Part shown: positions 8,374 through 28,453 of the stretch, one piece after another
Layout of the letters: each line of letters starts with the position of its first letter
How positions within the stretch are numbered: the stretch's first letter is position 1
Assembly: GCA_903896015.1 (NCBI GenBank)
Contig: CAITWF010000111.1
Location: 1-64,000 of the forward strand
DNA from: an uncultured Opitutia bacterium
GTDB taxonomy: Bacteria > Verrucomicrobiota > Verrucomicrobiia > Opitutales > Opitutaceae
Length of the DNA: 64,000 nt
Reading direction: 5' to 3'
Made by a program: the position numbers and the translations under genes
Notes under the pieces: model-generated
Told to the model about the DNA's origin: nothing
The model's input: only the letters and a program-made list of their open reading frames with translations
Databases searched by the model: none

Positions 8374-9273
8374 ATGCAAATTGAAAACTTCAAAATCTTC
8401 GCGGATCTCGTCGAGACGAAGAGTTTCTCGAAATCGGCGAAATTAAACGGCATCACGCAATCGGCGGTGAGCCAGCAGGCGCGGGCGATGGAGCGACACT
8501 TCAAGACGCTGCTCATCGATCGAAGTCAGAAACAATTTCAGCTCACGCGCGAGGGCCAGCGGGTCTACGACGCGGCGAAGGAAATGCTCCACACCTACGA
8601 GAAGCTGCTCTCGGAGCTGCAGGAAATGAAGAAGGTGATCAGCGGCACCATCCGGCTCTCCACGATCTATTCGATCGGGCTGCACGAGCTGCCGCCGTTC
8701 ATCAAAAAATTCCTCCACGATTTTCCGTCGGTCAACGTGCGCGTCGAATACCGCCGCTCAAACCTCGTTTACGAGGACATCCTGCACAACGCGGTGGACT
8801 TCGGCTTGGTGGCGTTTCCGATCAAGCAGCGTCAGATCGAGGTGCTGCCGTTCCGCAACGATCACCTCGTGCTCATTACGCATCCGCAGCACGCGCTCGC
8901 GAAGCGCGCCGAGATCGAGGTGAAGGACCTCGCGGCGCAAAAATTCATCGGTTTCGATCCCGACATTCCGACGCGCAAGGCCGTCGATCAGATTTTCCGC
9001 GAGCACAAGCTCGAGATCGAGCCGGTCATGGAGTTCGACAACATTGAGACCGTGAAACGCGCCGTCGAAATCGATCACGGCGTGGCCATCGTGCCGCAGG
9101 CGACGGTGCTGCAGGAACAGAAACAGGGCACGCTCGCGGTGCTGCATTTCAAGGGGAAGGATTTCACCCGCCCACTCGCGATCCTGCACCGCAAGGGCCG
9201 GGTGCTCACGCCCGCGATGAAGAAATTCATCGAGACCCTCGGGCTCGATCTACCCGAGATGCGCGATGCCTGA
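8374..9273 (+). CDS. LysR-type transcriptional regulator
   Basis: This 299-residue regulator has an N-terminal winged helix-turn-helix (FKIFADLVETKSFSKSAKLN, then ITQSAVSQQ), a linker helix to about residue 88, and a two-lobe effector domain from about 90 to 290. The overall form resembles the CysB/CbbR side of the family, but the inducer cannot be inferred. It diverges from yggS and is followed after 91 bp by a TlpA-like gene. LysR proteins often regulate a divergent neighbour, but a link to PLP homeostasis is only a guess. Confidence 0.9.
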   Translation: MQIENFKIFADLVETKSFSKSAKLNGITQSAVSQQARAMERHFKTLLIDRSQKQFQLTREGQRVYDAAKEMLHTYEKLLSELQEMKKVISGTIRLSTIYSIGLHELPPFIKKFLHDFPSVNVRVEYRRSNLVYEDILHNAVDFGLVAFPIKQRQIEVLPFRNDHLVLITHPQHALAKRAEIEVKDLAAQKFIGFDPDIPTRKAVDQIFREHKLEIEPVMEFDNIETVKRAVEIDHGVAIVPQATVLQEQKQGTLAVLHFKGKDFTRPLAILHRKGRVLTPAMKKFIETLGLDLPEMRDA

Positions 9274-12793: not shown

Positions 12794-12823
12794 TGTCCCA
12801 ATCCGTCTCGTGCGGCGCTATTA
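12794..12823 (+). promoter_or_regulatory. Shared promoter-like motif, copy 1
   Basis: TGTCCCAA (12794-12801), 14 bases, then CGCTATTA (12816-12823), ending 21 bp before the ATG at 12845. The same pair recurs upstream of three other genes in the window, with spacing that suits -35 and -10 elements. Confidence 0.65.
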
Positions 12824-12844
12824 ACCCCTCGATCGCGTTAACCC

Positions 12845-13732
12845 ATGTCCTCTTCCCGTGTCTTCACCCGTCGCGAAGTCTTGAAATCCGCCGCACTCGG
12901 CGCGCTCGCACTGCCGCTCCTCGACGCCCGCGCGCTGGCCGCTGATCCGGTCGCGGCTACTGCGGGCTCGGTGAACGAGGATCGTGAGCATGGCCTGCGG
13001 CTTGGCGTGGCGGGCTACACGTTTCGTGACCTCGGTGCCGCCGAATCGATCGCGGCCTTGAAGGCGCTGCGGATTAAGAATGCCTGCGTCTTCAAAAACC
13101 AGCTCAACTGGGAGACCGCCACGCCCGACGAGGCGCGGGCGGTCGCGGCGAAATATCACGCCGCCGGCATCGCGCTTTCGGGCACGGGTGTGGTGAACCT
13201 GACGAACGACGAGGCGAAGTCGCGACGCGCGTTCGACAACGTCCGCGCCGCGCAAGTGGCCACGATGATCTGTAAACCCGATCGCGACGCGCTGCCGCTC
13301 GTCGAGAAACTCGCGAAGGAATACGATCAGCGGCTCGCGATCCACAATCACGGCCCCGAGGACAAACTTTATCCCTCGCCGTCCGACACGTTCAACGCCG
13401 TCAAGTCGCTGGATGCGCGCCTTGGCGTCTGCATTGACATCGGCCACTCGATGCGCGCCAAGGCCGATCCGGTGGCGACGATTCGGCAATATGCCTCGCG
13501 CGTCTACGATTTGCACTTGAAGGACTCTCTCGCAGTGCCGGGCGCCATTGCCGACATTCCGGTCGAAGTGGGCGCCGGAAACATCGACATCCGCGGCGTG
13601 CTCCGCGTGCTGCTGGACATCCGGTATCGCGACGTCGTCGAGTTCGAATACGAGAAGGTCGCCGCCAATCCGATTACCGGCCTTGCTGAGTCCGTCGGCT
13701 ACGTGCGTGGCGTGCTGGCCGCGATGAGTTAA
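12845..13732 (+). CDS. Exported sugar phosphate isomerase/epimerase-like TIM-barrel protein
   Basis: The 295-residue protein begins with a twin-arginine signal (TRREVLKSAALGALALP, then a cleavage region near residue 32), followed by an AP-endonuclease-2-type TIM barrel. LAIHNHGPEDK, CIDIGHSMRAKADP and DLHLKDS carry the metal-binding His/Asp/Glu typical of xylose-isomerase-like enzymes. The substrate is unknown. It follows a shared promoter-like motif and precedes the redoxin gene by 10 bp, so the two probably form an operon. The start has CCC directly before ATG and no Shine-Dalgarno. Confidence 0.85.
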   Translation: MSSSRVFTRREVLKSAALGALALPLLDARALAADPVAATAGSVNEDREHGLRLGVAGYTFRDLGAAESIAALKALRIKNACVFKNQLNWETATPDEARAVAAKYHAAGIALSGTGVVNLTNDEAKSRRAFDNVRAAQVATMICKPDRDALPLVEKLAKEYDQRLAIHNHGPEDKLYPSPSDTFNAVKSLDARLGVCIDIGHSMRAKADPVATIRQYASRVYDLHLKDSLAVPGAIADIPVEVGAGNIDIRGVLRVLLDIRYRDVVEFEYEKVAANPITGLAESVGYVRGVLAAMS

Positions 13733-13742
13733 AGTTTTTCCC

Positions 13743-14981
13743 ATGAAAACCCTGCTTCGTCTCGCGCTCGCGGCCGCGCTCCTCGGCGGTTCGCTCTTCG
13801 CCCAGCAAAAAGTGAAGCGCAACGCGGACGGCACTGTAGACCTTGCGAGTGAGTTGCCGCCCGATGCGCACCGGCTCGCCCTCGGGGACGCCGCGCCCGA
13901 CTTCCACCTCAAGGGTGTTGATGGAAAATTTTATTCACTCGCCGATTTTCCCGCGAGCCGCGCCCAGCTGCTGATGGTCGTGTTTCTCTCGAACCACTGC
14001 CCGTATTCTCACGCGGCCGAGAATCGTCTCATCCCGCTCGCCAACGAATTTGCCGGCAAAGGCCTCGCGGTGATCGCGATCAATCCGAACAGCCCCGACG
14101 GCATCGACGTCAGCGAACTCGGCTACAGCAAATACAACGACAGCTTCGAGGAGATGGTTCTCTACGCGAAGGAGAAGGGCTTCACGTTTCCCTACGTTTA
14201 CGATGGTGAGACGCAGCAAACCGCCAAGGCTTACGGCTGCCTCGCGACGCCGCACGTCTTCCTCTTCGACGCGCAGCGCAAGCTCCGCTATGTCGGCCGG
14301 GTCGATGATTCGCGCTTCGAGGATTTGAAGACCGTGAAGTCGCTCGATGCGCGCAACGCCGTCGTGGAGCTGCTCGCGGGCAGGCCCGTCACCGTCGCGA
14401 CCACCACCGTCCTCGGCTGCTCAACCAAGTGGAATTCCAAGCGGGGCGACGTCGCGCTGGCCGAACAGAAATGGAAAGCCGAGCCCGTCGATCTCGCGCT
14501 GATCGATGCGGCCGGGATCGCGAAACTCGCGCAGAACAGCTCCAACCGCTACCGCCTCGTCAATGTCTGGGCGACGTGGTGCGCCCCGTGTGTGGCGGAG
14601 TTTCCTTCGCTCGTCTCGCTCGCGCGCCGGCTCGGTAACCGCGACTTCGAGTTCGACACGATCAGTCTCGACGATCCGAAGCTGCAGCCGCAGGCGAAGA
14701 CGTTTTTGGAAAAGCAGCACGCCGCGCCGCCCGGCCGCCTGAAACGCATCCTCAAAGCCGAAGGACGCACCGGCACGAATTTCCTCTACACCGAAGCCAG
14801 CACCGACGCGCTCGTGAAAGCGCTCGACCCCGAGTGGCCCGGCCCGCTGCCGCACACCGTGCTGATCGCGCCGGGCGGCAAGATCGTCTATCGCCACAAC
14901 GGCCCGGTCGAGCCCGCCGAGTTGCTCGCGAAAATCATCGCCGAACTCGGGCCCTACTACACGCCCGACCACGTGAAATAA
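13743..14981 (+). CDS. Exported protein with two thioredoxin-fold domains
   Basis: This 412-residue protein has a Sec signal (MKTLLRLALAAALLGGSLFA). Its first AhpC/TSA-like redoxin domain has NHCPYSHA near residue 83 and a TPHVFLFD cis-Pro segment. Its second TlpA-like domain has WATWCAPC near residue 279 and a later PHTVLIAPGG segment. It is predicted to act in the periplasm in thiol-disulfide exchange. It lies 10 bp after the TIM-barrel gene, and the start context is TTTTTCCCATG. Confidence 0.85.
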   Translation: MKTLLRLALAAALLGGSLFAQQKVKRNADGTVDLASELPPDAHRLALGDAAPDFHLKGVDGKFYSLADFPASRAQLLMVVFLSNHCPYSHAAENRLIPLANEFAGKGLAVIAINPNSPDGIDVSELGYSKYNDSFEEMVLYAKEKGFTFPYVYDGETQQTAKAYGCLATPHVFLFDAQRKLRYVGRVDDSRFEDLKTVKSLDARNAVVELLAGRPVTVATTTVLGCSTKWNSKRGDVALAEQKWKAEPVDLALIDAAGIAKLAQNSSNRYRLVNVWATWCAPCVAEFPSLVSLARRLGNRDFEFDTISLDDPKLQPQAKTFLEKQHAAPPGRLKRILKAEGRTGTNFLYTEASTDALVKALDPEWPGPLPHTVLIAPGGKIVYRHNGPVEPAELLAKIIAELGPYYTPDHVK

Positions 14982-15052
14982 TTCACGCTCGGCGCTTGTC
15001 TTCGGTGCGGGCCGTTGGTCTTGCTGACGGCCGCGCAAACGTCGTCTCCTGC

Positions 15053-16108
15053 ATGGCCGCTCCCTCCTCTTCGCCCACCTTTGGCTTCGGTATCATCGGC
15101 ATCGGCCTCATTGCCGATTTTCACGCGCGGGCGATCGCGACGATTCCGGGCGCGAAACTCGTCGGCGTCGCGACGCGCAACGCCGACAAGGCCCGGGCCT
15201 TCGCCGCAAAACACGGCGCGCCATTTCACACCACCGATATTGCCGCACTCGTTGCCCGCCCCGACATCCAGGCGGTGTGCATCACGACACCCAGCGGCGC
15301 TCACCTCGAGCCCGCGCTCGTCGCGATCCGTGCGGGCAAGCACCTGGTGATCGAAAAGCCGATCGAGATTACCACGGTGCGCACGGATGAAATTCTCCGC
15401 ACGGCGGAAGCGGCCGGGGTGCACATCGCGCCGATTTTCCAGTCCCGCTTTGGCGAGGGCGCGCGCACGGTGAAAGCCGCGATCGACGCCGGCCGGCTCG
15501 GCCGGCTCGTGCTCGCAAGCAACTACGTGAAGTGGCACCGCACGCGCGAGTATTACACCGCGCCGCGCGGGCAGTATGCGAACGACGGCGGCGGCGCCGT
15601 GATCAATCAGGCGATCCACGGGCTTGATCTTTTGCAGTGGTTCGTCGGGATGCCGTCCGAAATCTTTGCGTGGACGACGCGCCGCGTCTATGGGCACATC
15701 GAGGTTGAGGACACCGCGACGGCGTCGCTCAAATTCGCGAACGGCGCGCTCGGCGGGTTTGAGGCGAGCACGGCGTTGTGGCCGGGCTGGGCGCGTCGCC
15801 ACGAGATCTGCGGCGAGCATGGCTCGATCGCCCTTGAGGACGATCGGATCACGCACTGGGAATTTCGCACACCGCTGCCCGGCGATGAGGCGATTCGCAC
15901 GGCGGGAAAGGACAACGCCCTTGGCTCCGGCGCGAGCGAGCCCGGCGCGATCGCGGTCGAGGGACATCGCCGGCAGCTGCAGGAGTTTGCTGACGCGATT
16001 CGCGCCGGGCGCGCGCCCGCGCTTGACGGCCGTGAAGGCCGGAAAGCAGTCGCGTTCGTTAACGCGATCTACGACTCGGCGGCACGTGGTGCGCCGGTGA
16101 AGCTATGA
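15053..16108 (+). CDS. Gfo/Idh/MocA-family oxidoreductase, cytoplasmic
   Basis: This NAD(P)-dependent sugar or inositol dehydrogenase-like protein has 351 residues. The Rossmann start GFGIIGIGLIADFHARAI, the EKPIEITT motif after a Thr-Pro-Ser loop, and NQAIHGLDLLQWFVG with the catalytic His/Asp region are all present. Unlike the family member at 52096 it has no signal peptide. The ATG at 15053 is used; the frame is open further upstream inside the redoxin gene. It is likely cotranscribed with the permease at 16232. Confidence 0.88.
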   Translation: MAAPSSSPTFGFGIIGIGLIADFHARAIATIPGAKLVGVATRNADKARAFAAKHGAPFHTTDIAALVARPDIQAVCITTPSGAHLEPALVAIRAGKHLVIEKPIEITTVRTDEILRTAEAAGVHIAPIFQSRFGEGARTVKAAIDAGRLGRLVLASNYVKWHRTREYYTAPRGQYANDGGGAVINQAIHGLDLLQWFVGMPSEIFAWTTRRVYGHIEVEDTATASLKFANGALGGFEASTALWPGWARRHEICGEHGSIALEDDRITHWEFRTPLPGDEAIRTAGKDNALGSGASEPGAIAVEGHRRQLQEFADAIRAGRAPALDGREGRKAVAFVNAIYDSAARGAPVKL

Positions 16109-16231
16109 AGAGACCAAAGGCGAAAGGCGGGGGACCGGAGCTTTTTTTGTTTCCGCTCGTCCTTTGGTTTACCTCAGCTCTTGGTCTTTGTTCTCTCGTC
16201 TCTGGTCTTTAGTCTTTCCGCCTTTCTTCCC
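16109..16231. repeat. Purine/pyrimidine-rich intergenic repeat
   Basis: The spacer between the oxidoreductase and MFS genes begins with GACCAAAGG and CGAAAGGCGG. It ends in a pyrimidine-rich stretch with GGTCTTT twice, AGTCTTT once, and CCGCCTTTC, the complement of GAAAGGCGG. The arms are thus loosely inverted copies of a 7-9 bp unit and not one clean hairpin. No gene or clear terminator is present. Confidence 0.5.
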
Positions 16232-17572
16232 ATGACCCCAAATTCCCCCGCCCAGCCTTGGTGGCGTTCGTTCACGCGCGAGCACTGGTTCGTCTTCATC
16301 GTCGCCTCGCTGGCGTGGTTCTTCGATTGTCTCGACCAACAGATTTTCAATCTCGCGCGCGATCCGGCGATGGCGGACCTGCTCCTCGACAAGGCGAAGG
16401 CCACGGAATACGGCCCCTATACCACTTCGTTCTTTCTCGTCGGCTGGGCCGTCGGCGGACTGACCCTCGGCGCGATGGGCGACCGTTTCGGACGAGCGAA
16501 AATTCTCACCTACGCGATTCTGCTCTATTCGGTCTGCACCGGGCTCAGCGCGCTCTCGTCGGGCTTTTGGGATTTCTGTGCGTATCGGTTTCTCACGGGC
16601 ACGGGCGTCGGCGGTGTCTTCGGCTTGGCCGTCGCGCTGGTCGCGGATTCGGTGCCGGATCGCGCCCGCGCCCCCGCGCTCGGTTTGCTGCAGTCGTTTT
16701 CCACGATGGGCAACATGACTGCCGCGCTCATCGGCATGGGACTTGGCGCGATGGCCGTGATCCCGTTTGGCCTCAAGTCCTGGCAGGCGATGTTTCTCAT
16801 CGGCGCGTTGCCGGCGTTTTTCAGCGTGCTTGTGCTCCGCCAGCTGAAGGAGCCAAAGAAGTGGGTCGATGCGCGCGCGGCCGGCGTGAAGACCGGCGCG
16901 AAGTTCGGCTCTTACGCGGTGCTGCTCGGCCATCCGCGCTGGAAAAAGAACGCATGGCTCGGCCTCATCATGTGCAGCGCGGGCATCATCGGCCTGTGGG
17001 GCATCGGCAACTTCCACCCAAAAATTGTCGCCTCGATCGTCGAGGCACACTTCGCGCCGCAGCATCTTTCCGCGGATGCACTCCGCCAGGAAAAGACCTG
17101 GTGGACCTCCGTCGCGCTGCTCTGCCAAAATATCGGCGGTTTCTGCGGCATGATGTCGCTGGCGAAACTCGCGCAGGTGAAGAGCCGACGCTTCGCCTCC
17201 ATCGTCGCGCTGTCGCTCTCGCTGGTAACGACGTGGCTCGTGTTTTGGGGCCTGCGCGAGTTCAGCCAGATTTTCTGGATGCTGCCGCTGATGGGCTTTG
17301 GCCAGCTCTCGGTCTTCGGCGTGTATGCCATCTATCTGCCGGAGCTTTTCCCGACCAGCTTGCGCAGCACCGGTACGAGTTTCTGCTACAACGTCGGCCG
17401 CATCGTCGCCGCCACGGCGCCGTTCACCGTCGGCCAGATCACGAAAAAACTCGGCGGCAACGTCGAGGGCTTCCGCACCGCCGGCCTGTGGGTGAGTCTC
17501 GTGCTCCTCGTCGGCCTGGTGGCGATCCCGTTCCTGCCGGAAACGAAAGACCAACCGTTGCCGGAGGAGTGA
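16232..17572 (+). CDS. Major facilitator superfamily permease
   Basis: The 446-residue protein has about 12 hydrophobic segments. The MFS loop 2-3 motif GAMGDRFGRAKIL lies near residue 84, and the sugar-porter-like LPELFPTSLRSTG motif lies late in the protein. The form resembles sialic-acid or sugar/acid MFS carriers. The ATG at 16232 is chosen (CTTCCCATG); an in-frame TTG 17 codons upstream would extend into the repeat. Its neighbours suggest uptake of a sugar or sugar acid processed by the Gfo/Idh enzyme. Confidence 0.88.
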   Translation: MTPNSPAQPWWRSFTREHWFVFIVASLAWFFDCLDQQIFNLARDPAMADLLLDKAKATEYGPYTTSFFLVGWAVGGLTLGAMGDRFGRAKILTYAILLYSVCTGLSALSSGFWDFCAYRFLTGTGVGGVFGLAVALVADSVPDRARAPALGLLQSFSTMGNMTAALIGMGLGAMAVIPFGLKSWQAMFLIGALPAFFSVLVLRQLKEPKKWVDARAAGVKTGAKFGSYAVLLGHPRWKKNAWLGLIMCSAGIIGLWGIGNFHPKIVASIVEAHFAPQHLSADALRQEKTWWTSVALLCQNIGGFCGMMSLAKLAQVKSRRFASIVALSLSLVTTWLVFWGLREFSQIFWMLPLMGFGQLSVFGVYAIYLPELFPTSLRSTGTSFCYNVGRIVAATAPFTVGQITKKLGGNVEGFRTAGLWVSLVLLVGLVAIPFLPETKDQPLPEE

Positions 17573-17645
17573 GAAGACGTTGTCTGATTCGCGCCGACGA
17601 GACTCGAATTTCTCGCCCTTGGTTAACGCGTAGATCCAAAACTCT

Positions 17646-18650
17646 ATGAAACGAAGCGGAGGGTTTGCAGCTTTCTTAGATGGATTCGCGGCTGTGCGTT
17701 TGCTGCTGGCCGGATGCTTAGCCGCCACTGCGATGACGTGCTCGGCGGCGAACCCGGCCGAGAAGCTACTGGGCGCGAAGCGCATCGTGTTCCTTGGCGA
17801 TAGCATTACTCAGGGTGGCGACTACGTCACCGACGTGGAGTGCTGGCTGCTTGCGCAAGGAGTGCAGGTGGAGGTTCTCAACTTGGGTTTGGGCAGTGAA
17901 ACCGCCTCTGATCTCACGCTCGAGGAAAACGCGGCGCATGTGAAGAAATACGGTTTCGGTCGGCCCTTTGTGAGCGAGCGGCTGGCGCGTGTCCTAGCTG
18001 CGACCAAACCGGACTGGATATTTGTGTGTTACGGGATGAACGACGGCGGCAGTCTCACTGCGGATGAAGCCGGCACGAAGCGCTTTGCCGAGGCGGTAAC
18101 CCGACTGCGCGAGGCGGCGCTGCAGGCGGGCGTAAAACATGTGGTGCTTTGCACTCCGCCCGCGCACGACGCCAAGAGTGAAGTAGCCCAGCAATTTCAC
18201 GACCAGAATCTGACCCGGTATGCCGCCTGGCTGGTGTCAAAACGTGCCGACGGATGGGAAATCGTCGATATCCACACACCCTTTAGGGCCGCGCTGGACG
18301 CGCGACGCGCGCAGGACCCGACGTTTGAATTTGCCAAAGACGGCGTGCATCCCGGCCGCGAGGGCCATTGGGTGATGGCGCGGGAAATTCTCTCCCAAAC
18401 TTTTGGCGCGCCGTTGAAGGATGTTGCTGATGCTGAGGATTTGTTTCCCTCGCGGGGCGCCGAAATTCGCGCCTTGGTCCGGGAGCGCATGGTCCTGCTT
18501 TTCAGCGCCTGGATGACGCAGATTGGGCACGGACGCCCGGGTGTGGCGGGAGGTCCTGGGGCTAAGCCCGGCCCGACGGTCGCGGCTGCGAATGCCACTG
18601 CCGCCGGACTGACGCAAAAAATCCAACGGCTCCTCGACGGCCGGCCTTAG
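17646..18650 (+). CDS. SGNH/GDSL-type hydrolase with signal peptide
   Basis: The 334-residue protein is predicted to be an exported esterase, possibly a carbohydrate deacetylase. After an N-terminal hydrophobic signal (LLLAGCLAATAMTCSA), the GDSIT block carries the catalytic Ser near residue 52. LGLGSETA, GMND and DGVHPG supply the Gly, Asn and the Asp/His pair of SGNH enzymes. The C-terminal 60 residues are low-complexity Ala/Gly-rich. It is monocistronic and convergent with the alginate-lyase-like gene. Confidence 0.88.
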   Translation: MKRSGGFAAFLDGFAAVRLLLAGCLAATAMTCSAANPAEKLLGAKRIVFLGDSITQGGDYVTDVECWLLAQGVQVEVLNLGLGSETASDLTLEENAAHVKKYGFGRPFVSERLARVLAATKPDWIFVCYGMNDGGSLTADEAGTKRFAEAVTRLREAALQAGVKHVVLCTPPAHDAKSEVAQQFHDQNLTRYAAWLVSKRADGWEIVDIHTPFRAALDARRAQDPTFEFAKDGVHPGREGHWVMAREILSQTFGAPLKDVADAEDLFPSRGAEIRALVRERMVLLFSAWMTQIGHGRPGVAGGPGAKPGPTVAAANATAAGLTQKIQRLLDGRP

Positions 18651-18776
18651 GCGACCGCGCAAACGCGGTGAAAGAGGAAGGCGGGAAACAAATCATGTTC
18701 ACCGCGACCGTAGATCGCGAGCCCGCTCACTTTAAGGGCGACCCGTGGGCGGCGGGGATTGGCGAAAATCGATGCG

Positions 18777-19967
18777 CTATTTCGCCACGCTACCCAGCAC
18801 CGGTGGCAGGCCCACCGCGCCGATGTCGCCGTGCGTGAGCGTTTCCCAGACCATGTGGTTGGAATCGGCGCCGGTCGGTCGGTTCGTCGGGATGACTTTC
18901 GCCATGGTCGGCAGCGCAACGCCGAGGCGCGAGTGATAGTGATTGAACGCGATCTCCCACGTGGGTTCGAGGGCGAACTCCAGATTGGGCGGCGACTTCA
19001 CGTTGTTCGGGGCGAGGAACTGCGCCTGAAATTCCATCGCGGCGGTGATGCGCGCGCCCTGCTCCGCGTAGAGGTCGAGGCCTTGCTGGCGGGCGGTCTC
19101 GGCGGCGTCGACGATCGAGGCGAAGGTCATGTTGGCGTGGTGTGGATCGCGCGCAGTTTCCTGGAGGAGGCCGTCGACGAGCGGTGGCACGTGGCTCTTG
19201 TTACCCCAAGGCGCAGAGGAGGGCAGGGCGCTGGGCGGCACAATGGGCGAAGGACCGTCGGATTTCAGATAGATGCAGGCGGGCACCCGACCGCGCCACA
19301 TGCGCACGCCATCGGCAAAGAGGACGCGATCGTCGTTGAAGACGCCGATGTTGATCAGCGCCTCGGCCATCGCGACTTCCTTGTTCCCGTTTTCGTCGCA
19401 CCCGTGGATGAGCGAAGGCACGTATTGGGTAACGAGCATTTTTTGGAAGCGCGTGATGTCTTCCTTTTCCCAGAACGTTGACGTGGCGCGGATGATTTCG
19501 GCGGCGCGTGGCCAGACGGAAGCGGCCCACGCGGCCTGCACGGGGCCGTTGTCGTTGAGGTGGCCGCCGATGAGCGTGCCGGCCCAGGCATTCATGATGC
19601 GGATGGCGTTGCGGGCGTATTTTTCGTTGCCGGTTACGACCCACGCGAGCGCCTGCGTGTAGGCGGCGGTGGCATCTCGTCGCTCGTCCTTGCAACCGAG
19701 ATCGGGCTTCGAATACGGCCCGCACTCGACGCTCGCGCGCGGGCTTGGCGTATAGTTGAGCGCGGCGAGCTCGCTTTTGAGCAGCGCGGAAAATGCGGTC
19801 TTTTGTGGCTCGGTGCCGGCCGCCACGCGCTGCTTGATCAGGTCGAGCTGCGCGCGGTTGAGCAGGATGCCGGGATGGAGAAACGGCGTGTGCGAGGGAT
19901 CGTTTTTGGCGCGGGCCGCAGGGGCGAGCGCACAGAGAGACAGAAGAAAAAGGGTGGGGAGTCGCAT
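18777..19967 (-). CDS. Alginate-lyase-family exported protein
   Basis: The 396-residue protein has a Sec signal (MRLPTLFLLSLCALAPAARA) and an alpha/alpha-barrel of the alginate lyase superfamily, including LHPGILLNRAQLDLIKQRV, NDNGPVQAAWAASVWPRAAE and NHYHSRLGVALP. It is likely a periplasmic uronate polysaccharide lyase, but the real polysaccharide is unknown. The ATG at 19967 is preceded by CCCC. A shared promoter-like motif ends 13 bp upstream, which would give a leader of only about 6-7 nt. The frame stays open far upstream without a signal-like start. Confidence 0.82.
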   Translation of the reverse strand: MRLPTLFLLSLCALAPAARAKNDPSHTPFLHPGILLNRAQLDLIKQRVAAGTEPQKTAFSALLKSELAALNYTPSPRASVECGPYSKPDLGCKDERRDATAAYTQALAWVVTGNEKYARNAIRIMNAWAGTLIGGHLNDNGPVQAAWAASVWPRAAEIIRATSTFWEKEDITRFQKMLVTQYVPSLIHGCDENGNKEVAMAEALINIGVFNDDRVLFADGVRMWRGRVPACIYLKSDGPSPIVPPSALPSSAPWGNKSHVPPLVDGLLQETARDPHHANMTFASIVDAAETARQQGLDLYAEQGARITAAMEFQAQFLAPNNVKSPPNLEFALEPTWEIAFNHYHSRLGVALPTMAKVIPTNRPTGADSNHMVWETLTHGDIGAVGLPPVLGSVAK

Positions 19968-19980
19968 GGGGCTGTGGGGG

Positions 19981-20009
19981 TAATAGCGGCAGCGGCTTCG
20001 ATTGGGACA
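19981..20009 (-). promoter_or_regulatory. Shared promoter-like motif, copy 2
   Basis: On the minus strand TGTCCCAA (20009-20002), 13 bases, then CGCTATTA (19988-19981). It lies 13 bp before the alginate-lyase-like start. This is the only copy on the minus strand, and it points toward its gene like the others. Confidence 0.65.
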
Positions 20010-20088
20010 ACCTCCGTGTTGCGCCCGGCCGGCCCGGCCGCGTAACCTCGCCCAACCTTGTCCGTCACAGCACTCCAACCCCCTGCCG

Positions 20089-20661
20089 ATGCGTTTCTGG
20101 ATTAAAATCATTCTCGTGCTTTGCTTCCTATGGATGTGCCCCGGTTTGACCGCGGAAACCGAATCGGGCGAGTTGTGCGATTTGAAAACCGCGGCGGAAA
20201 AAGGCGATCTCGGCGCGCGGGCGGAGCTGATTCTGCGCCTCTGCAACCACCAGCCGCACGATTACGTCGAGGCCGCCCAACTGCTCATGCTCAACGCGAA
20301 GCAGGGGGACAGCGATTCCGCCGACATGCTCGGCCAGCTTTATCGCTCCGGCGAAGGGGTGACAAAAAATTACGCGGCATCAGTCCTCTGGCTGAAAAAG
20401 GCCGTCGATCTCGGAAACGTCTACGCTCAATACCACATCGGGTTGCGCTATGAGGGGGGCGAGGGCGTGACGCAGGACTTCGCCGAAGCCTATTTCTGGT
20501 ATGTGACGAGCGCGGCCCTGCAGTTCAACGACAGCTTCCGGGCCCTGACCATGCAGCGACGCGACCAGATCGAAAAGAAGCTTTCGCCCGAACAGGTCAT
20601 CGAGGTGCAGAATCGCAGTGAGCGGTGGGTTGAGGAATTTTTGAAAAAACATCCGCGCTGA
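20089..20661 (+). CDS. Sel1-repeat protein with signal peptide
   Basis: The 190-residue protein has a hydrophobic N-terminus (IKIILVLCFLWMCPGLTA) and two or three Sel1 repeats: ADMLGQLYRSGEGVTKNYAA, then AQYHIGLRYEGGEGVTQDFA. Sel1 proteins act as periplasmic or envelope scaffolds, and no partner is evident. The ATG at 20089 precedes the signal directly. The gene diverges from the alginate-lyase-like gene over 121 bp. Confidence 0.85.
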   Translation: MRFWIKIILVLCFLWMCPGLTAETESGELCDLKTAAEKGDLGARAELILRLCNHQPHDYVEAAQLLMLNAKQGDSDSADMLGQLYRSGEGVTKNYAASVLWLKKAVDLGNVYAQYHIGLRYEGGEGVTQDFAEAYFWYVTSAALQFNDSFRALTMQRRDQIEKKLSPEQVIEVQNRSERWVEEFLKKHPR

Positions 20662-20728
20662 CGGGCCGGAGGGACCGTGAGACGAGCTCGCGGCGAAGGC
20701 ACGGGATTTGGTCGCTATGATTGCGGCG

Positions 20729-20757
20729 TGTCCCAATCGCGCCGCGCCGCGCTATTA
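20729..20757 (+). promoter_or_regulatory. Shared promoter-like motif, copy 3
   Basis: TGTCCCAA (20729-20736), 13 bases, CGCTATTA (20750-20757), then 29 bp to the ATG at 20787. The downstream leader is pyrimidine-rich and has no Shine-Dalgarno. Confidence 0.65.
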
Positions 20758-20786
20758 TCTTCTTCGTAACCCCCACTGCTGTTCCC

Positions 20787-21776
20787 ATGAATGCTGGATT
20801 TTCCCGTCGAGACTTTCTCAAAGGCGCTGCGTTGCTTCCAATCGCGTCCGCGCTCCCCGCGTCGTCGGCGCTCGCCGCTGCCGAGCCTGTGAGGCGCGTG
20901 GGCGGGCCGCAGCTCAAGGTGTCGTGCAACGCCTACTCGTTCGCGAAGCAACTCGGCACCGGCGGCAAGGGCCCGCTGAGCTTGGTCGCGTTTGCCGAGT
21001 TTTGCGCCAAGGCGAATTTCGACGCGATCGATCCGACCGGCTACTATTTTCCCGGCTACGAAAAGAACGGCCTCGGCGTGCCGACGGACAAGTTGATCTT
21101 CGAGCTGAAGCGGCGCTGCTTCGATCTCGGCCTCGGCATCAGCGGCACGGGCATCGGGAATAATTTCACGACCGCGGACCAGGCGGCGCGAGCCAATGAC
21201 GTGCAGCGCATCAAAAAATGGATCGAAGTCGCCGCGAAGCTCGGCGCGCCGGTGATTCGCGTCTTTGCCGACACCCAGATGCGGGCCGAGACGTGGCAGT
21301 CCGTCTCCAAAGGGGCGAAGCGCGACGACGTGGAAAAATGGATCGCCGACGATATCCGGGAGTGCGCCGATTACGGTGCGAAGTTTGGCGTGACCGTCGG
21401 CGTGCAGAATCACGGTGATTTCATCCGCACTGCCGACGATCAGATTGCCCTCATCCGGCGTATCGACTCGCCGTGGTGCGGCGCAATCGTGGACACCGGT
21501 TACTACCGTGCGACCGACAATTATGGCGAGATGGCGAAGGCCGCACCGTATGCGGTGAACTGGCAGGTAAAGCAGGGCACGGAGGGCGTCGAAAACGAAG
21601 CCTCCGCTCCGACCGATCTGATTCGGTTGCTCAAGATCGTGCGCGCGTCGGGCTACCGCGGCTATCTGCCGATTGAGATTCTTTCTTCGCGCGGCGGCAC
21701 GGCGCCCAAGGATCCCGTCAAGGTCGTGCCGGAATTTCTCGCCGAAGTGCGACAGGCGATCGCGGCCACGGCCTAA
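20787..21776 (+). CDS. Exported sugar phosphate isomerase/epimerase-like TIM-barrel protein
   Basis: The 329-residue protein starts with a twin-arginine signal (SRRDFLKGAALLPIASALPA), followed by a xylose-isomerase-like barrel. VGVQNHGDF, IVDTGYYR and LPIEILSSRG mark metal-site strands. It shares fold, Tat export and promoter motif with the protein at 12845, but the two are only distantly similar. The DUF1080 gene follows after 11 bp and is probably cotranscribed. Enzymes of this type act on keto-sugars, but the substrate cannot be stated. Confidence 0.85.
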   Translation: MNAGFSRRDFLKGAALLPIASALPASSALAAAEPVRRVGGPQLKVSCNAYSFAKQLGTGGKGPLSLVAFAEFCAKANFDAIDPTGYYFPGYEKNGLGVPTDKLIFELKRRCFDLGLGISGTGIGNNFTTADQAARANDVQRIKKWIEVAAKLGAPVIRVFADTQMRAETWQSVSKGAKRDDVEKWIADDIRECADYGAKFGVTVGVQNHGDFIRTADDQIALIRRIDSPWCGAIVDTGYYRATDNYGEMAKAAPYAVNWQVKQGTEGVENEASAPTDLIRLLKIVRASGYRGYLPIEILSSRGGTAPKDPVKVVPEFLAEVRQAIAATA

Positions 21777-21787
21777 ATTTCTCCCCC

Positions 21788-22543
21788 ATGAATCTAAAAC
21801 TCCCCGCCCTTCTTTTCTGCTCGTTCGCGTTGAGCGCGCCCGCCTTCGCCGCCATCGAGGAGCCCATCGACAGCCGCTTCGTCGCGGCCAAGCCCGGCGC
21901 ATTTCCTGCGACGCCCGCCTCGCCAACGCTCGGTGCGAAACCGCCGATGGGCGCGATCGTTTTGTTTGACGGCAAGAACCTCGACGCCTGGGCGAAGAAG
22001 GCCGGCAAGGACTGGCTGAAGGAGGACGGCCCCGCGAAATGGAAACTGGTCGAGGGCGACGCCGTCGAGGTCGTGCCCGCGAGCGACTGCCTCATCACGC
22101 ACCAGAAATTCGGCGACTGCCACGTGCACGTCGAGTTTCGCACGCTTGGCGCGCCGACGAATAGCGGCGTTTATTTTCAGACCCGCTACGAGGCCGACAT
22201 CAACGAGACCTACGGCAAGACCGACGGCAATCCCTGCGGTAACCTCGGTAACTGCACCCCGAAGGGCACGCTCCCGAAAGCCCGCCCCGCACGAGCGCCT
22301 CTGGAATGGCAGACCTTCGACATCGATTTTAGTGCTCCGCGCTTTGACGCGACGGGCAAGAAGACCGCCAGCGCCCGCATGACCGTCGCGCTCAATGGCG
22401 TGAAAATCTACGAAGACCAGCAACTCAACCTGCCCACGGGCGCGGCCGGCCGTCTCGGTGAGGCGCCGACCGGTCCGCTCATGTTGCAGGAGCACGGCAT
22501 GCCGATCCAATTTCGCAACATCTGGCTCGTGGAAAAGAAGTGA
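21788..22543 (+). CDS. DUF1080 (3-keto-disaccharide hydrolase-like) exported protein
   Basis: The 251-residue protein has a Sec signal (MNLKLPALLFCSFALSAPAFA) and a DUF1080 jelly-roll domain. LFDGKNLDAWAKK near residue 60, HVHVEFRTLGAPTNSGVYF and PLMLQEHGMPIQFRNIWL are family hallmarks. Some members hydrolyse 3-keto-glycosides. Pairing with an exported TIM-barrel protein and a nearby Gfo/Idh enzyme fits an oxidation-based glycoside breakdown route, which is inference. The start context is TCTCCCCCATG. Confidence 0.88.
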   Translation: MNLKLPALLFCSFALSAPAFAAIEEPIDSRFVAAKPGAFPATPASPTLGAKPPMGAIVLFDGKNLDAWAKKAGKDWLKEDGPAKWKLVEGDAVEVVPASDCLITHQKFGDCHVHVEFRTLGAPTNSGVYFQTRYEADINETYGKTDGNPCGNLGNCTPKGTLPKARPARAPLEWQTFDIDFSAPRFDATGKKTASARMTVALNGVKIYEDQQLNLPTGAAGRLGEAPTGPLMLQEHGMPIQFRNIWLVEKK

Positions 22544-22566
22544 TCGGGGTCTGCGCTGCGCGCCGC

Positions 22567-22595
22567 TGTCCCAAAACCGGCGGCTCGCGCTATTA
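22567..22595 (+). promoter_or_regulatory. Shared promoter-like motif, copy 4
   Basis: TGTCCCAA (22567-22574), 13 bases, CGCTATTA (22588-22595), 23 bp before the EF-hand gene. The TonB-dependent receptor gene may be cotranscribed from it. Confidence 0.65.
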
Positions 22596-22618: not shown

Positions 22619-22966
22619 ATGAATCAAACTCGTCTCCTCGGCGCGGCGGTCGTTTGCGCGACAGCCCTGTTCTCCACTTCGCTTTTCGCCCAGTCACCCG
22701 GGCCGAAGGCGCGTATTTTCGCAAAATACGATACGAACAAAAACGGCGTCATCGATGGCGATGAAATCGAGGCCGTCCGCAAGGCGTTCGCCGCCGATCC
22801 GAAGGGCGAGTTTGCCGTCTACGATACAAATCATGACGGCAAGCTCAGCGACGAGGAGATCGCCGCCATCAAGCCGCCGGGCGGGAAGAAGGGTGGCAGC
22901 AAGAAAAAGTCCGATGCCGACGCGAAGCCAGCGGACGCCGCCGCGCCGAAATCCGACGGCAAGTGA
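22619..22966 (+). CDS. Small exported EF-hand protein
   Basis: The 115-residue protein has a signal peptide ending near LFAQS, two canonical EF-hand loops (YDTNKNGVIDGDE and YDTNHDGKLSDEE) about 35 residues apart, and a Lys/Ala/Asp-rich tail. It is predicted to bind calcium outside the cytoplasm. It is expressed from the shared motif and lies 63 bp upstream of the TonB-dependent receptor. Confidence 0.88.
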   Translation: MNQTRLLGAAVVCATALFSTSLFAQSPGPKARIFAKYDTNKNGVIDGDEIEAVRKAFAADPKGEFAVYDTNHDGKLSDEEIAAIKPPGGKKGGSKKKSDADAKPADAAAPKSDGK

Positions 22967-23029: not shown

Positions 23030-25246
23030 ATGAGATCATCTTTCCGACTCCTTGGCTGCGTCCTCGCCGTGGCCCCGGTGCTGTTCGCCCAGCCGGCGAC
23101 CACCTCCGGCAAGACCGAAAACTCCGGTGAACTCGTCCAGCTTTCCGAGTTTTCCGTGCAGGAAAACTCCGATACTTCCTACATCGCCTCGGAGAGTGTC
23201 ACCGGCACGCGCACTGCCACGAAGATCGCCGATCTGCCGTACGCCGTGAGCGTGATCACGAGCGAATTCATGAACGACTTCGATCTCTTCAGCCTCACGG
23301 GCGATCTGAACGGCGTCGCGGCCTCGTTGAACAACGTGAACGACGAGGGCACCTACAGCCTGCGCGGCCTCACGACGAACAACAATTTTTACCTGCGCAA
23401 CGGCTTCTACCGCCTCGGCATGGTCGATCGCGTAAACACCGATCGCATCGAGGTCATCAAGGGCCCCAACGCCGCGCTCTACGGCGCCACCAATCCGGCG
23501 GGCATGATCAACATCGTAAGCAAAGCTCCGAAGCTCACCGCCTACCAGAGCTTCGCGGTCACGTTCGGGCCGTTCGACAACCGGCGCGTCGAGTTCAACG
23601 TGAATCAGCCGCTGGGTTCGGTCGCTGGCGTCGGTCTTTCTAATTTGCTCAGCGTGCAGGTTACCGATGCGAATACCCCAGCCTCCGCGCCGTCGGGCAC
23701 CAAGAACCGTGTCGTCGACGACGTTTTGCAGGCGAAGCTGAAGGACGGCAGCACACTCACCGCCGAGTTTGAATGGTCGCAGATCAACGTCACTCCTGGC
23801 TACTCGGCATCGATCCCGAATCAGACGCTGGTTGACGGCAAGACGCTCACCGCCGTGACGCGCCCGGATTTGGTCAACTTCAACCAAGACGGTCCGGTGG
23901 GCTACAAGAACCGTTCCACCTACTCGGCCTACCTGACCTACGAGAAGCGCTGGAATTCCATCTGGTCGAGCCGCGTCAACGGCTATTGGTATCGTCGGCC
24001 CGAGATTCAGTTCAACGTCAGCTCCAGTTCGACGTTCAATCCTTTCACCAACACGTTTTCCGCCCGCTCCGTGCAAATGGACGAACTGAACCAGGATGGT
24101 GGCGCGTTCCAGATCGACACGCTCGCGAAATATCCAGTCTTCGGCGGCGAAGTGAAGGGCCAGACGCTGTTCACCGTCGACTACTCGCAAAATTGGCGCA
24201 CGCGCGAGATTTGGGGCTTCAACACCAAGCTCTACTCGATCCCCGCGCTGTCGATCGTCACGCCGAACTACACGGTGCCGCCGTTCGATGCGTTCAACAT
24301 CGTCACACGTTACGACAAGACGCGCGCGGACGATCTCGGTTTGTTTCTTAGCCAGCAATTTCGCGCGTTCAACGATCGCCTCATTAGCTTCATGAGCCTG
24401 CGGCACGATGCCGTGGTTTATAATTTTAACTTCGGCAACCAATACAACGCGAGTGGCGGCGCACTGAAGACTCCCGGCCAGGTGCTGCACTACGACAGCC
24501 GCGCGTGGTCGCCCTCGCTGGGCGCGAATTACAAACTGACCAAGTCGGTCGCCTTCTACACGAGCTACAGCCAGTCGTTCGCGCCGCAATTGCAGGTGGC
24601 GAAGCTCGGCACCCCGCCGTTGGATAACGAGCGTGCCAAGGGTTTCGACTACGGCTTCAAGTTCGGCCTTTTCGACAACCGGCTCCAGTTCACTACCGGC
24701 GGCTTCTACATCGATCGCACCGGCGTGAAGACGACCGTCAAGGACCCGGTCACCGGTCTCACCGACACCGTGGCCGCCGGCTCGCAAAACGCGAAAGGCT
24801 TCGAGATCGAGGGCTCGTGGCGCGCCACGGAAAACCTCACCGTGCTCGCCAACTACAGCTACACGAACGCGAGGATCACGTTTAACGGCACCACGGTCAC
24901 CGACGTCGGCCAGCCTCCCGCCGGCGTGCCGGTCGATCAGGCTTACCTCGCGCTCGCCTACCGTTTCGGTGGTGCGCTGAAAGGCCTGAGCTGGCACCCG
25001 AGTGTAAATTACACCGGCGTGGCGTTTCCCAATTCGACCGCCACCGATATCACGCGCAATCTCGACGCACCCAGCAACGCCATCGTCAACATGGGCTTCA
25101 CCTACGCGTGGAAACAAGAGGGCCTGCGACTCAAACATTCGATCCGGATCAGCGCGAAGAATCTCTTGGACCGCACCTACCAGACGCCGGGCGGTAACCT
25201 TGGCCTTGGCCGCGGCATTTACTTCGCCTACTCGCTCAATCATTGA
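23030..25246 (+). CDS. TonB-dependent outer-membrane receptor
   Basis: The 738-residue protein has a signal peptide (to about residue 23), a probable TonB box region (LVQLSEFSVQ), a plug domain with LPYAVSVITSEF and RIEVIKGPNAALYGATNPAG, and a beta barrel ending in an aromatic/His C-terminus (FAYSLNH). No N-terminal STN signalling domain is present, so it is not a FecA-type transducer although an ECF sigma gene follows after 44 bp. The plug resembles siderophore-type receptors; the carbohydrate-related neighbours also allow a glycan ligand. The start context is CCATCCCCATG. Confidence 0.93.
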   Translation: MRSSFRLLGCVLAVAPVLFAQPATTSGKTENSGELVQLSEFSVQENSDTSYIASESVTGTRTATKIADLPYAVSVITSEFMNDFDLFSLTGDLNGVAASLNNVNDEGTYSLRGLTTNNNFYLRNGFYRLGMVDRVNTDRIEVIKGPNAALYGATNPAGMINIVSKAPKLTAYQSFAVTFGPFDNRRVEFNVNQPLGSVAGVGLSNLLSVQVTDANTPASAPSGTKNRVVDDVLQAKLKDGSTLTAEFEWSQINVTPGYSASIPNQTLVDGKTLTAVTRPDLVNFNQDGPVGYKNRSTYSAYLTYEKRWNSIWSSRVNGYWYRRPEIQFNVSSSSTFNPFTNTFSARSVQMDELNQDGGAFQIDTLAKYPVFGGEVKGQTLFTVDYSQNWRTREIWGFNTKLYSIPALSIVTPNYTVPPFDAFNIVTRYDKTRADDLGLFLSQQFRAFNDRLISFMSLRHDAVVYNFNFGNQYNASGGALKTPGQVLHYDSRAWSPSLGANYKLTKSVAFYTSYSQSFAPQLQVAKLGTPPLDNERAKGFDYGFKFGLFDNRLQFTTGGFYIDRTGVKTTVKDPVTGLTDTVAAGSQNAKGFEIEGSWRATENLTVLANYSYTNARITFNGTTVTDVGQPPAGVPVDQAYLALAYRFGGALKGLSWHPSVNYTGVAFPNSTATDITRNLDAPSNAIVNMGFTYAWKQEGLRLKHSIRISAKNLLDRTYQTPGGNLGLGRGIYFAYSLNH

Positions 25247-25290: not shown

Positions 25291-25845
25291 ATGACGCCGC
25301 GCCCGCTCCACGACGAAACCGAAAGCCGCAAGCGGCTCATGGCCCTGATGACGCGGCATCAGCGGCAAATCTTTGCCTACATCTACACGCTGGTGCCCGA
25401 TCGGCACGACGCCGAAGATTTGCTCCAGGAGACGAGTCTCGTGGTTTGTGAGAAGTTTCATGAGTTCACGCCCGGCACCGACTTCGTCGCGTGGGCCTGC
25501 CAGATCGCGTGGTGGCGCATCCGCTATTCGCGGCAGAAGTTCGCGCGTTCGAAGGTCGTCTTCGACGATGAGGTGCTCGAGGCGGTCGCGCGTACCGCGG
25601 GCGAGATGGCGCCCGAACTCGACGAACGCCACGAGGCGCTGGCGGGTTGCCTGAAAAAACTTCCCGCCCGCGACCGCGAGCTCGTGCTCACGCGCTACGA
25701 GCCGGGCAGTGGCGTGGCCGAGGCCGCGCGCCGCTCCGGCCGCTCGATGGACGCCGCTTACAAGGCGCTTAACCGCTTGCGGAAACTGCTGCACGACTGC
25801 GTAACCAACCAGCTTGCGCATGAACCGCCCGGAGGCGTCGCGTGA
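25291..25845 (+). CDS. ECF-type RNA polymerase sigma factor
   Basis: The 184-residue protein has sigma region 2 (HQRQIFAYIYTLVPDRHDAE, then DLLQETSLVV) and region 4 (LPARDRELVLTRYEPGSGV, then a helix-turn-helix). The form resembles the sigma subfamily common in Planctomycetes and Verrucomicrobia. Its stop overlaps the GTG of the FecR-LamG gene by four bases, a typical sigma/anti-sigma arrangement. Its target promoter is unknown; the shared motif in this window is one candidate. Confidence 0.9.
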   Translation: MTPRPLHDETESRKRLMALMTRHQRQIFAYIYTLVPDRHDAEDLLQETSLVVCEKFHEFTPGTDFVAWACQIAWWRIRYSRQKFARSKVVFDDEVLEAVARTAGEMAPELDERHEALAGCLKKLPARDRELVLTRYEPGSGVAEAARRSGRSMDAAYKALNRLRKLLHDCVTNQLAHEPPGGVA

Positions 25846-27437
25846 ATCTTTCGGACCGCGAGATTTTGGAATTGAATGAACTGTGCGGCGCCGTCGTCGA
25901 CGGTGCGCTGACCGAAGCGCAGCGCGCCCGGTTAGCGGGCTGGCTGGCGGACTCGGAGGAGGCGAGGCGCTTCTACGTGCGCGCGCTCGGCCAGTCGGCG
26001 AGCCTGCACACTTACGCCTCAGAGATGTGCGCCGAGGCGCCGGACATCAGCGTGCCACCGCAGCGGCTGGCGCGTGCGATGCGCTATGGCGTCTGGTGGG
26101 GCACCGTGTTGCCGGCCGCCGCCGCCCTCGTGATTGGCCTGTGGTTTTCCTATCGGCCGGCGACGGCGCAGGCCGCGCCCGCGAGCGAAGGTGTCGCGCG
26201 CCTCACGGGCGCGAAAAATTCCCGCTGGTCGGCTGTCGCCCTTCAGCCGGGCGATCGGATTGAAAAAAACCAGAAGCTCGAACTCGCCGCGGGCCTCGCC
26301 GAAATCACCTTCGACTCCGGCGCGCGCGTGGTGCTGGAGGGGCCGGCGGCGCTCGACGTGAATTCCGCGTGGGATGGCACGCTGCGCCAAGGCACGCTGA
26401 AGGCAAGTGTCCCGCCTGAGGCCATCGGGTTTCGCATTTCCAATTCCGCCGTCGACGTCGTTGATCTAGGCACCGAATTCACGATGATCGCGGACGGTCG
26501 CGGTGCGGCCGAGGTGCTCGTGCTCAAGGGCGAGGTCGAGGCGGCGCCGCGCGGCTCTGATGACGAGACGATCCTGCTGCGCGAAAACGAGGCGCGGCGT
26601 TTCGCGGCGTCCGGTGTGTCGGGCGTGAGCGATCAAGAGAAGAAATTTGCGCAGTTCACGCAGCCGCTGGCCCTCGACCGGTTTGCGCCGGCGATCAGCT
26701 ATGTGCACTGGTCGTTCGACGACGCGTCCGGCGAATTGCTCCGCGCCGAAGCCGGTGGCCGGCCGCTCGTGAGCAGCGACGCGCACCTGAGCTCCAGCGA
26801 CGCCGCGCTGCTCGCAGCCAGCCATGTCCCCGGCCGCCGCGCGCGCGCGCTGCATTTCGGCGGGCAGCTTTTTGCGCGCGCGAATGTGCCCGGCCTTTCC
26901 GGCGCCTCGCCGCGCACGGTGGCGTTTTGGGTGAAGGTCCCGGAGGGCGCCGCGACCGATGCCTGGATGGTGTCGTGGGGCACGGCCATGAAGAAACTCG
27001 GATCGCGCCCCGTGCAGATCAGTTGGAACCGCCGGCCGGGCGAAGGCTCGTTTGGCGCGCTGCGCACCGACTTTGGCGGCGGCTACGCCATCGGCTCGCA
27101 CGACCTGCGCGACGGACGCTGGCATCACGTGGCCGTTTATTTTTCCGCGGGCGACGAGACGGTGCCCATGCAGGTGCGGCAGTATGTCGATGGCCGGCTT
27201 GAGAGCAGCACGATCACGCACACGCCTGGCAAGTCCGGCACCGCACCGCTCACGGGTGGCGCTGCGCAGATGGATGTCGTCTGGCTCGGCTGCCGGCTCA
27301 CGGGCAAGCAGCCCGAGCGTTTTCGTGGCGAGCTCGACGAACTCTTCATCGCCGATCGCGGTCTCGAGCCGAACGAGATTGTCTCGTTGATGAACGACAA
27401 CCGCTTCCCGGCTTCCGCGGTCGCGACCGCACCGTGA
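25842..27437 (+). CDS. FecR-like anti-sigma protein with C-terminal LamG domain
   Basis: The 531-residue protein has a short cytoplasmic anti-sigma region (residues 1-80), one membrane segment near 88-104 (VLPAAAALVIGLWFSY), a FecR domain (about 115-240, with VVDLGTEFTMIADGRGAAEV), and a concanavalin-like LamG domain (about 290-525, with PRTVAFWVKVPEG and LDELFIADRGLEPNEI). It probably holds the upstream sigma factor at the membrane and may sense glycans through LamG. The start is a GTG overlapping the sigma stop. Confidence 0.88.
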   Translation: MNLSDREILELNELCGAVVDGALTEAQRARLAGWLADSEEARRFYVRALGQSASLHTYASEMCAEAPDISVPPQRLARAMRYGVWWGTVLPAAAALVIGLWFSYRPATAQAAPASEGVARLTGAKNSRWSAVALQPGDRIEKNQKLELAAGLAEITFDSGARVVLEGPAALDVNSAWDGTLRQGTLKASVPPEAIGFRISNSAVDVVDLGTEFTMIADGRGAAEVLVLKGEVEAAPRGSDDETILLRENEARRFAASGVSGVSDQEKKFAQFTQPLALDRFAPAISYVHWSFDDASGELLRAEAGGRPLVSSDAHLSSSDAALLAASHVPGRRARALHFGGQLFARANVPGLSGASPRTVAFWVKVPEGAATDAWMVSWGTAMKKLGSRPVQISWNRRPGEGSFGALRTDFGGGYAIGSHDLRDGRWHHVAVYFSAGDETVPMQVRQYVDGRLESSTITHTPGKSGTAPLTGGAAQMDVVWLGCRLTGKQPERFRGELDELFIADRGLEPNEIVSLMNDNRFPASAVATAP

Positions 27438-27445
27438 CTCTAACC

Positions 27446-28453
27446 ATGCGCTTCACCCCCTGCCTGATTTTTCTCTCGCTCGCCGCGGTCGCAACGGCGG
27501 TGCCGAACCAAAAAATTCTGTTCTTCACGAAGTGCTCCAATTTCGAGCACAACGTCGTCAAGGAGCGCGACGGCCGGCCGAGCTTCGCGGCGCAGGTGCT
27601 CGCGGCGCTCGGGCCGGCCCACGGCGTCGAGTTCGTGTGCTCGAAGGACGGCTCCAAGTTCACGCCGGACTACCTCGCGCAGTTCGATGCGTTTCTCTTC
27701 TACACCAGCGGCGATTTGCTCGCACCGGGCAACGACGGCAACCCGCCGATGACGCCGGCCGGCAAGCAGGCGCTGCTCGACGCGATCAAGAAAGGGAAGG
27801 GTTTCATCGGCACGCACTCGGCGGCCGACACGTTTCACACGGACGAGACCGCCGCGACCAACACAAACCAGCCGCGCACCTGGCGCTACCGCCAGCTCGG
27901 GGATAAAGCCGATCCTTACACGCAGATGATCGGCGGCGAACTGATCGTACACGGCTGCCAGCAAATCGCCGTTGCGCGCGTCATCGATTCGGCATTTCCC
28001 GGCTTTGGCCCACTCGGCGATCACGTCGAGCGGCAGGAGGAATGGTATTCGATGACGAACTTTGCCCCGGACCTGCACGTGCTGCTCGTCCTCGACACGG
28101 CGAAGATGCGCAACCCGTATCCCGATGAGCCGAACTGGCCGCCGGTCGGCTGGGACACGCCGTACAAGCGGCCCGCCTATCCCGTGACGTGGGCGCGCCG
28201 CTACGGTGAGGGTCGCGTGTTCTACACGGCGCTCGGCCACAGCGAGGAGACGTGGCGCGATCCCGTGTTTCAGCAAATTCTGTTCGGCGGGATCGACTGG
28301 GCGCTTGGCCGGGCGAAAAACGACGTCGCCCCGAATCTCGCGCAGGTCGCGCCGCGCGCCGCCGATTTGCCGCCGGTGTCCGCGCCGGTCGCGGGACTTC
28401 CGCCCGCCCCAAGAAAATTGGAAGGCCAGACCCCGTCCCATCACTATCCATGA
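27446..28453 (+). CDS. ThuA-domain exported protein
   Basis: The 335-residue protein has a Sec signal (MRFTPCLIFLSLAAVATAVP) and a ThuA/GATase1-like fold: KKGKGFIGTHSAADTFH, then YGEGRVFYTALGHSEETW and ILFGGIDWALGRA. ThuA proteins are linked to trehalose and other sugar metabolism, with no proven chemistry. The ATG at 27446 is preferred because it starts the signal. An in-frame GTG at 27434 would overlap the previous stop (GTGA) and cannot be excluded. The stop overlaps the VOC gene. Confidence 0.85.
   Translation: MRFTPCLIFLSLAAVATAVPNQKILFFTKCSNFEHNVVKERDGRPSFAAQVLAALGPAHGVEFVCSKDGSKFTPDYLAQFDAFLFYTSGDLLAPGNDGNPPMTPAGKQALLDAIKKGKGFIGTHSAADTFHTDETAATNTNQPRTWRYRQLGDKADPYTQMIGGELIVHGCQQIAVARVIDSAFPGFGPLGDHVERQEEWYSMTNFAPDLHVLLVLDTAKMRNPYPDEPNWPPVGWDTPYKRPAYPVTWARRYGEGRVFYTALGHSEETWRDPVFQQILFGGIDWALGRAKNDVAPNLAQVAPRAADLPPVSAPVAGLPPAPRKLEGQTPSHHYP

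Follow-up and report, generated by a model that had tools for sequence, protein, structure and literature searches.

The two-part element that precedes four genes in a 64,000-nucleotide stretch of DNA from an uncultured Opitutia bacterium (GCA_903896015.1, contig CAITWF010000111.1; the window, taken at its whole length) is very probably the core promoter read by the ECF σ factor encoded at 25291-25845, which a putative FecR-LamG anti-σ factor would hold inactive and which would drive four local units, including the one that contains its own gene. This reading is built on what the sequences display, namely the element itself, its exclusivity within the genome, its conservation together with the σ factor, its rigid spacing and its position before start codons. 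There are also points against it: the spacing is 18 bp at one of the sites (P1), the -10 box is more A+T-rich than is usual for ECFs, and conservation by itself cannot tell which protein binds the element.

The four copies reported in the initial annotation, starting at 12794, 20009, 20729 and 22567, proved to be exact in position and strand. P1 (12794-12823, plus strand) reads TGTCCCAA-N15-GCTATTA, with a spacer one base longer than in P2 (19981-20009, minus strand), P3 (20729-20757, plus strand) and P4 (22567-22595, plus strand), all of which read TGTCCCAA-N14-GCTATTA. When the boxes are delimited as TGTCCNAA and GCTATT, the spacer is 14 bp at three sites and 15 bp at the 12794 site, and from TGTCCC to CTATTA it amounts to 17 bp at P2-P4 and 18 bp at P1, in line with the 17-18 bp put forward for -35 and -10 boxes. 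Each of the four sites points, as had been proposed, towards a gene whose product has an export signal, and the element ends 21 (P1), 13 (P2), 29 (P3) and 23 bp (P4) before the ATG, which agrees with the 13-29 bp originally described. That these words arose by chance, or represent a short dispersed repeat, can practically be dismissed: duplication can yield four near-identical words close together, but spacer and flanks differ among P1-P4, shuffled windows give a chance expectation of 0.00, and the conservation of the rigid spacing in other contigs that carry the σ factor already contradicts such an origin.

The same exclusivity is seen at the scale of the genome. The scan that the initial annotation had proposed, run with spacers of 11 to 16 nt (TGTCCCAA-N11-16-CTATTA), returned four matches only in the whole 4.96 Mb, all of them P1-P4 and all within the 13 kb upstream of the σ gene, against none for the reversed control pattern; the TGTCCCAA half alone occurs 54 times in the genome. 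At a constant spacer of 14 bp and with a tolerance of two mismatches, the whole genome gave 25 matches versus 46 for the reversed control, so that no weaker or wider regulon is visible, and a genome-wide regulon was rejected on these grounds. Viral contigs contained 21 motif matches, a number that a rough estimate places within what chance would give in a collection of that size.

The genes behind the four sites, grouped into units by strand and short gaps (the gene calls come from a simple script, and their start codons and operon ends are approximate), would form a full catabolic and transport cluster and not a set of secreted proteins alone. P1 would open a plus-strand unit with a Tat-exported xylose-isomerase-like TIM barrel (PF01261; 12845-13732), a redoxin/thioredoxin-like exported protein (13743-14981), a Gfo/Idh/MocA oxidoreductase (15053-16108), an MFS/sugar transporter (16232-17572) and, as its possible end judging by strand and spacing only, a GDSL/SGNH hydrolase (17646-18650). 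P2 precedes an alginate-lyase-like exported protein (PF05426; 18777-19967, minus strand), while P3, which is kept before the same gene in relatives, precedes a second Tat-exported xylose-isomerase-like TIM barrel (PF01261; 20787-21776, plus strand), probably transcribed together with a 3-keto-disaccharide hydrolase family protein (PF06439, DUF1080; 21788-22543, plus strand). P4 would head the plus-strand unit with the σ gene: a small exported EF-hand protein (22619-22966), a TonB-dependent outer-membrane receptor (23030-25246), the σ factor (25291-25845), the FecR-LamG protein (25842-27437), a ThuA-family protein (27446-28453), where the coding frames nearly abut, and, as the end of the unit, an exported glyoxalase-fold protein (28450-29454). 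The secreted catabolic regulon originally envisaged is retained as to its catabolic character and is local, with four transcription units within 17 kb; it is neither genome-wide nor restricted to secreted proteins. Since DUF1080/PF06439 proteins have been linked to 3-keto-glycoside breakdown (PMC9007349), the best guess is that the cluster encodes a 3-keto-sugar-type catabolic pathway. What it has in common with 3-keto-glycoside catabolic clusters is a member of the 3-keto-disaccharide hydrolase family, accompanied by TIM barrels and an oxidoreductase of the Gfo/Idh type; what sets it apart is its alginate-lyase-like and redoxin proteins and its proposed ECF promoter. A Sel1-repeat gene (20089-20661) separates the alginate-lyase-like gene from the TIM-barrel gene and looks inserted, because in relatives the promoters of these two genes adjoin each other back to back, at distances of mostly 12-45 bp.

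ECF σ factors are abundant in Verrucomicrobiota, and the one proposed as the reader of P1-P4 contains, in its 184 aa, the σ2 and σ4 domains (PF04542 and PF08281) and no further Pfam domain, which is the composition of an ECF (group IV) σ factor. It belongs to TIGR02989 (Sig-70_gvs1), with 185.2 bits (E 7.5e-55) for a curated NCBIfam cut-off of 124.55 bits, and it is the only one of the 25 TIGR02989 matches in the genome above that cut-off, the other 24 falling below it. A second σ-like gene in the window (44715-45185, minus strand), with 64.6 bits and therefore below the cut-off, has no motif. The open-access literature searched yielded no paper that names the TIGR02989 subfamily, and an alignment of the σ orthologs with their paralogs showed a few clade-specific residues and no clear promoter-specificity code.

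One line of evidence that links the element to this particular σ factor is their co-occurrence. Among 200 genomes of the family, orthologs of the σ factor (at least 80% identity, separated by a clear gap from paralogs with at most 44%) were found in 11, and the 29-nt motif in six, all of them among the 11 with an ortholog and none among the 189 without it (Fisher 5.6e-9, for a sample in which close relatives are not independent of each other). In these six genomes the motif lies within the same gene cluster, and the proposed scan of related Opitutaceae, in this way, placed it only where the ortholog is present. Four of the other five ortholog genomes (G026, G043, G090 and G031) carry motif variants ending in C or T, and the fifth (G159) is represented by a contig of 5.6 kb whose sequence begins within the TonB gene, so that the site region is cut off. 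In a sample of 338 genomes of the phylum, the exact motif was present in five of the six with an ortholog and in 11 of the 332 without one, and this last figure does not exceed what the reversed control gives. In one of those five (G261) the exact match and the σ gene are on different contigs, and directly upstream of the σ gene there is a near-match, TGTCCCAA-N14-GCTATGT; the exact motif, with a 14-bp spacer (L178), lies between two exported-protein genes and is possibly a distant target or chance. G270 holds three related matches in differing contexts, with no window-homologous genes nearby. The P1-equivalent position is occupied in G023, directly upstream of the redoxin/thioredoxin-like gene and with a 14-bp spacer, and in G025, by AGTCCCAA, with the 15-bp spacer of P1 in the window, and in the single-contig genome of another genus (G070) the same four units carry sites. 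Two copies of the cluster (L041 and L156), with two σ orthologs, are present in G054, and in each copy the motif stands ahead of the TIM-barrel gene.

A wider comparison was made with 33 other contigs carrying the σ factor (66-92% identical), and the element was present, in its exact form or with up to two mismatches, in nearly all of them where the relevant DNA is available. The contigs seemingly without it (L051, L052, L057 and L061) start inside the cluster, downstream of the expected site, and with more DNA for L057 both divergent sites were present. On most contigs, the same signal appears to adjoin the same σ factor across the phylum Verrucomicrobiota. Much of this footprint was gathered by matching the boxes, the spacing test and the de novo search being less circular. 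When the boxes were fixed and the spacer was allowed to range from 4 to 30 bp, 602 kb contained 36 exact sites at 14 bp and one at 15 bp, which is P1 of the window, and none at the 25 other lengths, the expectation being 0.005 per length. A de novo search of the masked non-coding DNA that precedes the σ gene gave TGTCC-N17-GCTAT as the top gapped word, found in 20 of 26 loci, the best word in shuffles reaching at most four; without masking of the coding DNA, the search returned coding-sequence noise only. A matrix trained only on sites from the more distant loci (L062-L080, L162 and L163) ranked the three 14-bp sites of the window first, with 26-33 bits, the next match having 9. The resulting consensus is TGTCCnAAw-N13-YGCTATTa, and 15 orthologous sites share only 39% identity in the spacer between its boxes; the boxes thus seem to have been maintained while the flanks drift (with the identity of the boxes being partly selected for).

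These comparisons also bear on whether the sites could be promoters of the housekeeping σ factor, or of another ECF, conserved by chance in an inherited gene cluster. TATTA does resemble part of a -10 hexamer, and the many sub-threshold TIGR02989 matches mean that other σ-like genes exist in the genome, but this explanation is hardly credible in view of the mere four sites in 4.96 Mb, of the background levels of the motif in genomes that lack the σ ortholog and of boxes that are kept over divergent spacers; moreover, 20 paralogous σ loci (286 kb) contained no motif site at all, a result that also led to the rejection of a motif common to all ECF paralogs.

The position of the element has its own implications. 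At the loci examined, the distance from its end to the start codon is usually 7-103 bp (7-8 bp at L060), and in many relatives divergent sites start 12-24 bp apart, which together leave little room for another promoter. No σ70-like promoter (TTGACA-16/18-TATAAT-like) was found between 12400 and 23200, and neither the 15 bp upstream of the motif nor the leader downstream shows strong sequence conservation. All this, together with the single fixed spacing over the phylum, makes it improbable that the motif is an operator bound by a conventional activator or repressor, with some other promoter driving the genes. Two-part operators exist, the -10 half is atypical for ECFs and a LysR gene is located 3.5 kb upstream of P1; nevertheless, no transcription-factor gene is found at the same place in relatives, as judged by homology to the window genes, whereas the σ gene co-occurs with the motif. 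As for the LysR regulator (8374-9273), it is 92% identical to a counterpart near the P1-like site in G023, and the surroundings of the cluster in the remaining relatives examined showed no counterpart. The dedicated σ factor that the initial annotation had suggested, “perhaps the ECF factor at 25291”, is favoured over an activator site by co-occurrence, rigid spacing and a position as close as 7 bp to the ATG. It is also favoured by the occurrence of the motif upstream of the σ gene or its operon, both in the window and in relatives: in distant ones (62-80% identity), the site is often directly before the σ gene or before the EF-hand leader gene or operon, which would imply autoregulation.

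The FecR-LamG protein that adjoins the σ factor (25842-27437, plus strand) is likely its anti-σ sensor. Its conserved N-terminus is predicted to form three helices and to be cytosolic, and it is followed by one transmembrane segment (about 84-102), a FecR domain (PF04773, 24.9 bits, just above the cut-off of 24) and a LamG domain, so that it has the FecR domain after a single transmembrane segment that characterizes FecR-type anti-σ factors. In a structure model of moderate quality (pLDDT 78, with the transmembrane segment and the linker poorly predicted), the FecR part matched in Foldseek a putative anti-σ factor from Parabacteroides (4m0n, E 3.2e-6) and also the PupR signalling domain (6ovk), and the matches of the model include carbohydrate-binding lectin-like domains as well. 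According to the mechanism proposed, this protein would hold the σ factor at the inner membrane until released by a signal in the periplasm, which may be a sugar that the LamG domain binds. The free σ factor would then recognise the -35 (TGTCCnAAw) and -10 (YGCTATTa) boxes with their 17-bp spacing, and would transcribe the P1 cluster (TIM barrel, redoxin, Gfo/Idh, MFS and GDSL), the alginate-lyase-like gene behind P2, the P3 unit (TIM barrel and 3-keto-disaccharide hydrolase) and the P4 unit (EF-hand, TonB receptor, σ, FecR, ThuA and glyoxalase). As the P4 unit holds the σ gene, positive autoregulation would result.

How does this system compare with those already described? The ECF41 promoter is TGTCACA-n16-CGTC (PMC3426412), and the element studied here (TGTCCCA-N16-CTATTA) resembles it in a -35 box beginning with TGTC and in the fixed spacing, as does the apparent regulon in being made up wholly or mainly of neighbouring genes. 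However, the -10 box is GCTATT(A) instead of CGTC, no extra C-terminal domain was found in the 184 aa of the σ factor, and this has a separate, putative FecR-type partner and belongs to another subfamily (TIGR02989). Canonical ECF promoters contain AAC in the -35 box and CGT in the -10 box (PMC8103513), while the consensus TGTCCnAAw/YGCTATTa has neither. The cluster shares with FecI/FecR systems (PupI/PupR) the joint encoding of a TonB receptor, an ECF σ factor and a FecR-domain membrane protein, whose FecR part is predicted to resemble the PupR signalling domain structurally. FecI-like systems lack autoregulation (PMC8103513), in contrast to what appears to be the case here. Further differences are the LamG domain added to the FecR protein and targets that suggest sugars and not iron. 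Some polysaccharide utilisation loci of Bacteroides are controlled by ECF σ/anti-σ pairs, and the present cluster is similar to them in its glycan-type gene content, its TonB receptor, its secreted enzymes and what is probably a dedicated ECF/anti-σ pair, but it belongs to another phylum, uses another promoter, has no SusD noted in it and carries the same promoter before each of its units. The system is most likely a real, tight and local ECF regulon of a known kind, with new details. One TIGR02989 σ factor would thereby be assigned an exactly described promoter, a regulon delimited to four units and a plausible sensor, which makes its signal (perhaps a sugar whose 3-keto derivative the cluster degrades) directly testable, and the apparently orthogonal σ-promoter pair can be offered for expression tools.

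Across Verrucomicrobiota, the motif-headed gene most often present beside the σ gene is that of the EF-hand protein, also at loci with other catabolic genes (L063, L064, L065, L066, L067, L070, L072, L073, L075 and L080). On this basis, a tentative and rather unlikely reading is that the EF-hand protein, the ECF σ factor and the FecR-LamG protein constitute a phylum-wide module with its own promoter, in which the EF-hand protein would act as a calcium- or ligand-dependent periplasmic co-sensor and not as a mere target. At one of these loci, from the Verrucomicrobiia (L065:985-9305), the motif also precedes, on the other strand, an Ig-domain protein and a PEP-CTERM protein, which suggests a wider local regulon of surface proteins there. 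At another locus (L071:5915-8474), near the σ ortholog, a motif with one mismatch stands 11 bp before a planctomycete-type cytochrome gene (PSD1/PSCyt1/PSCyt2).
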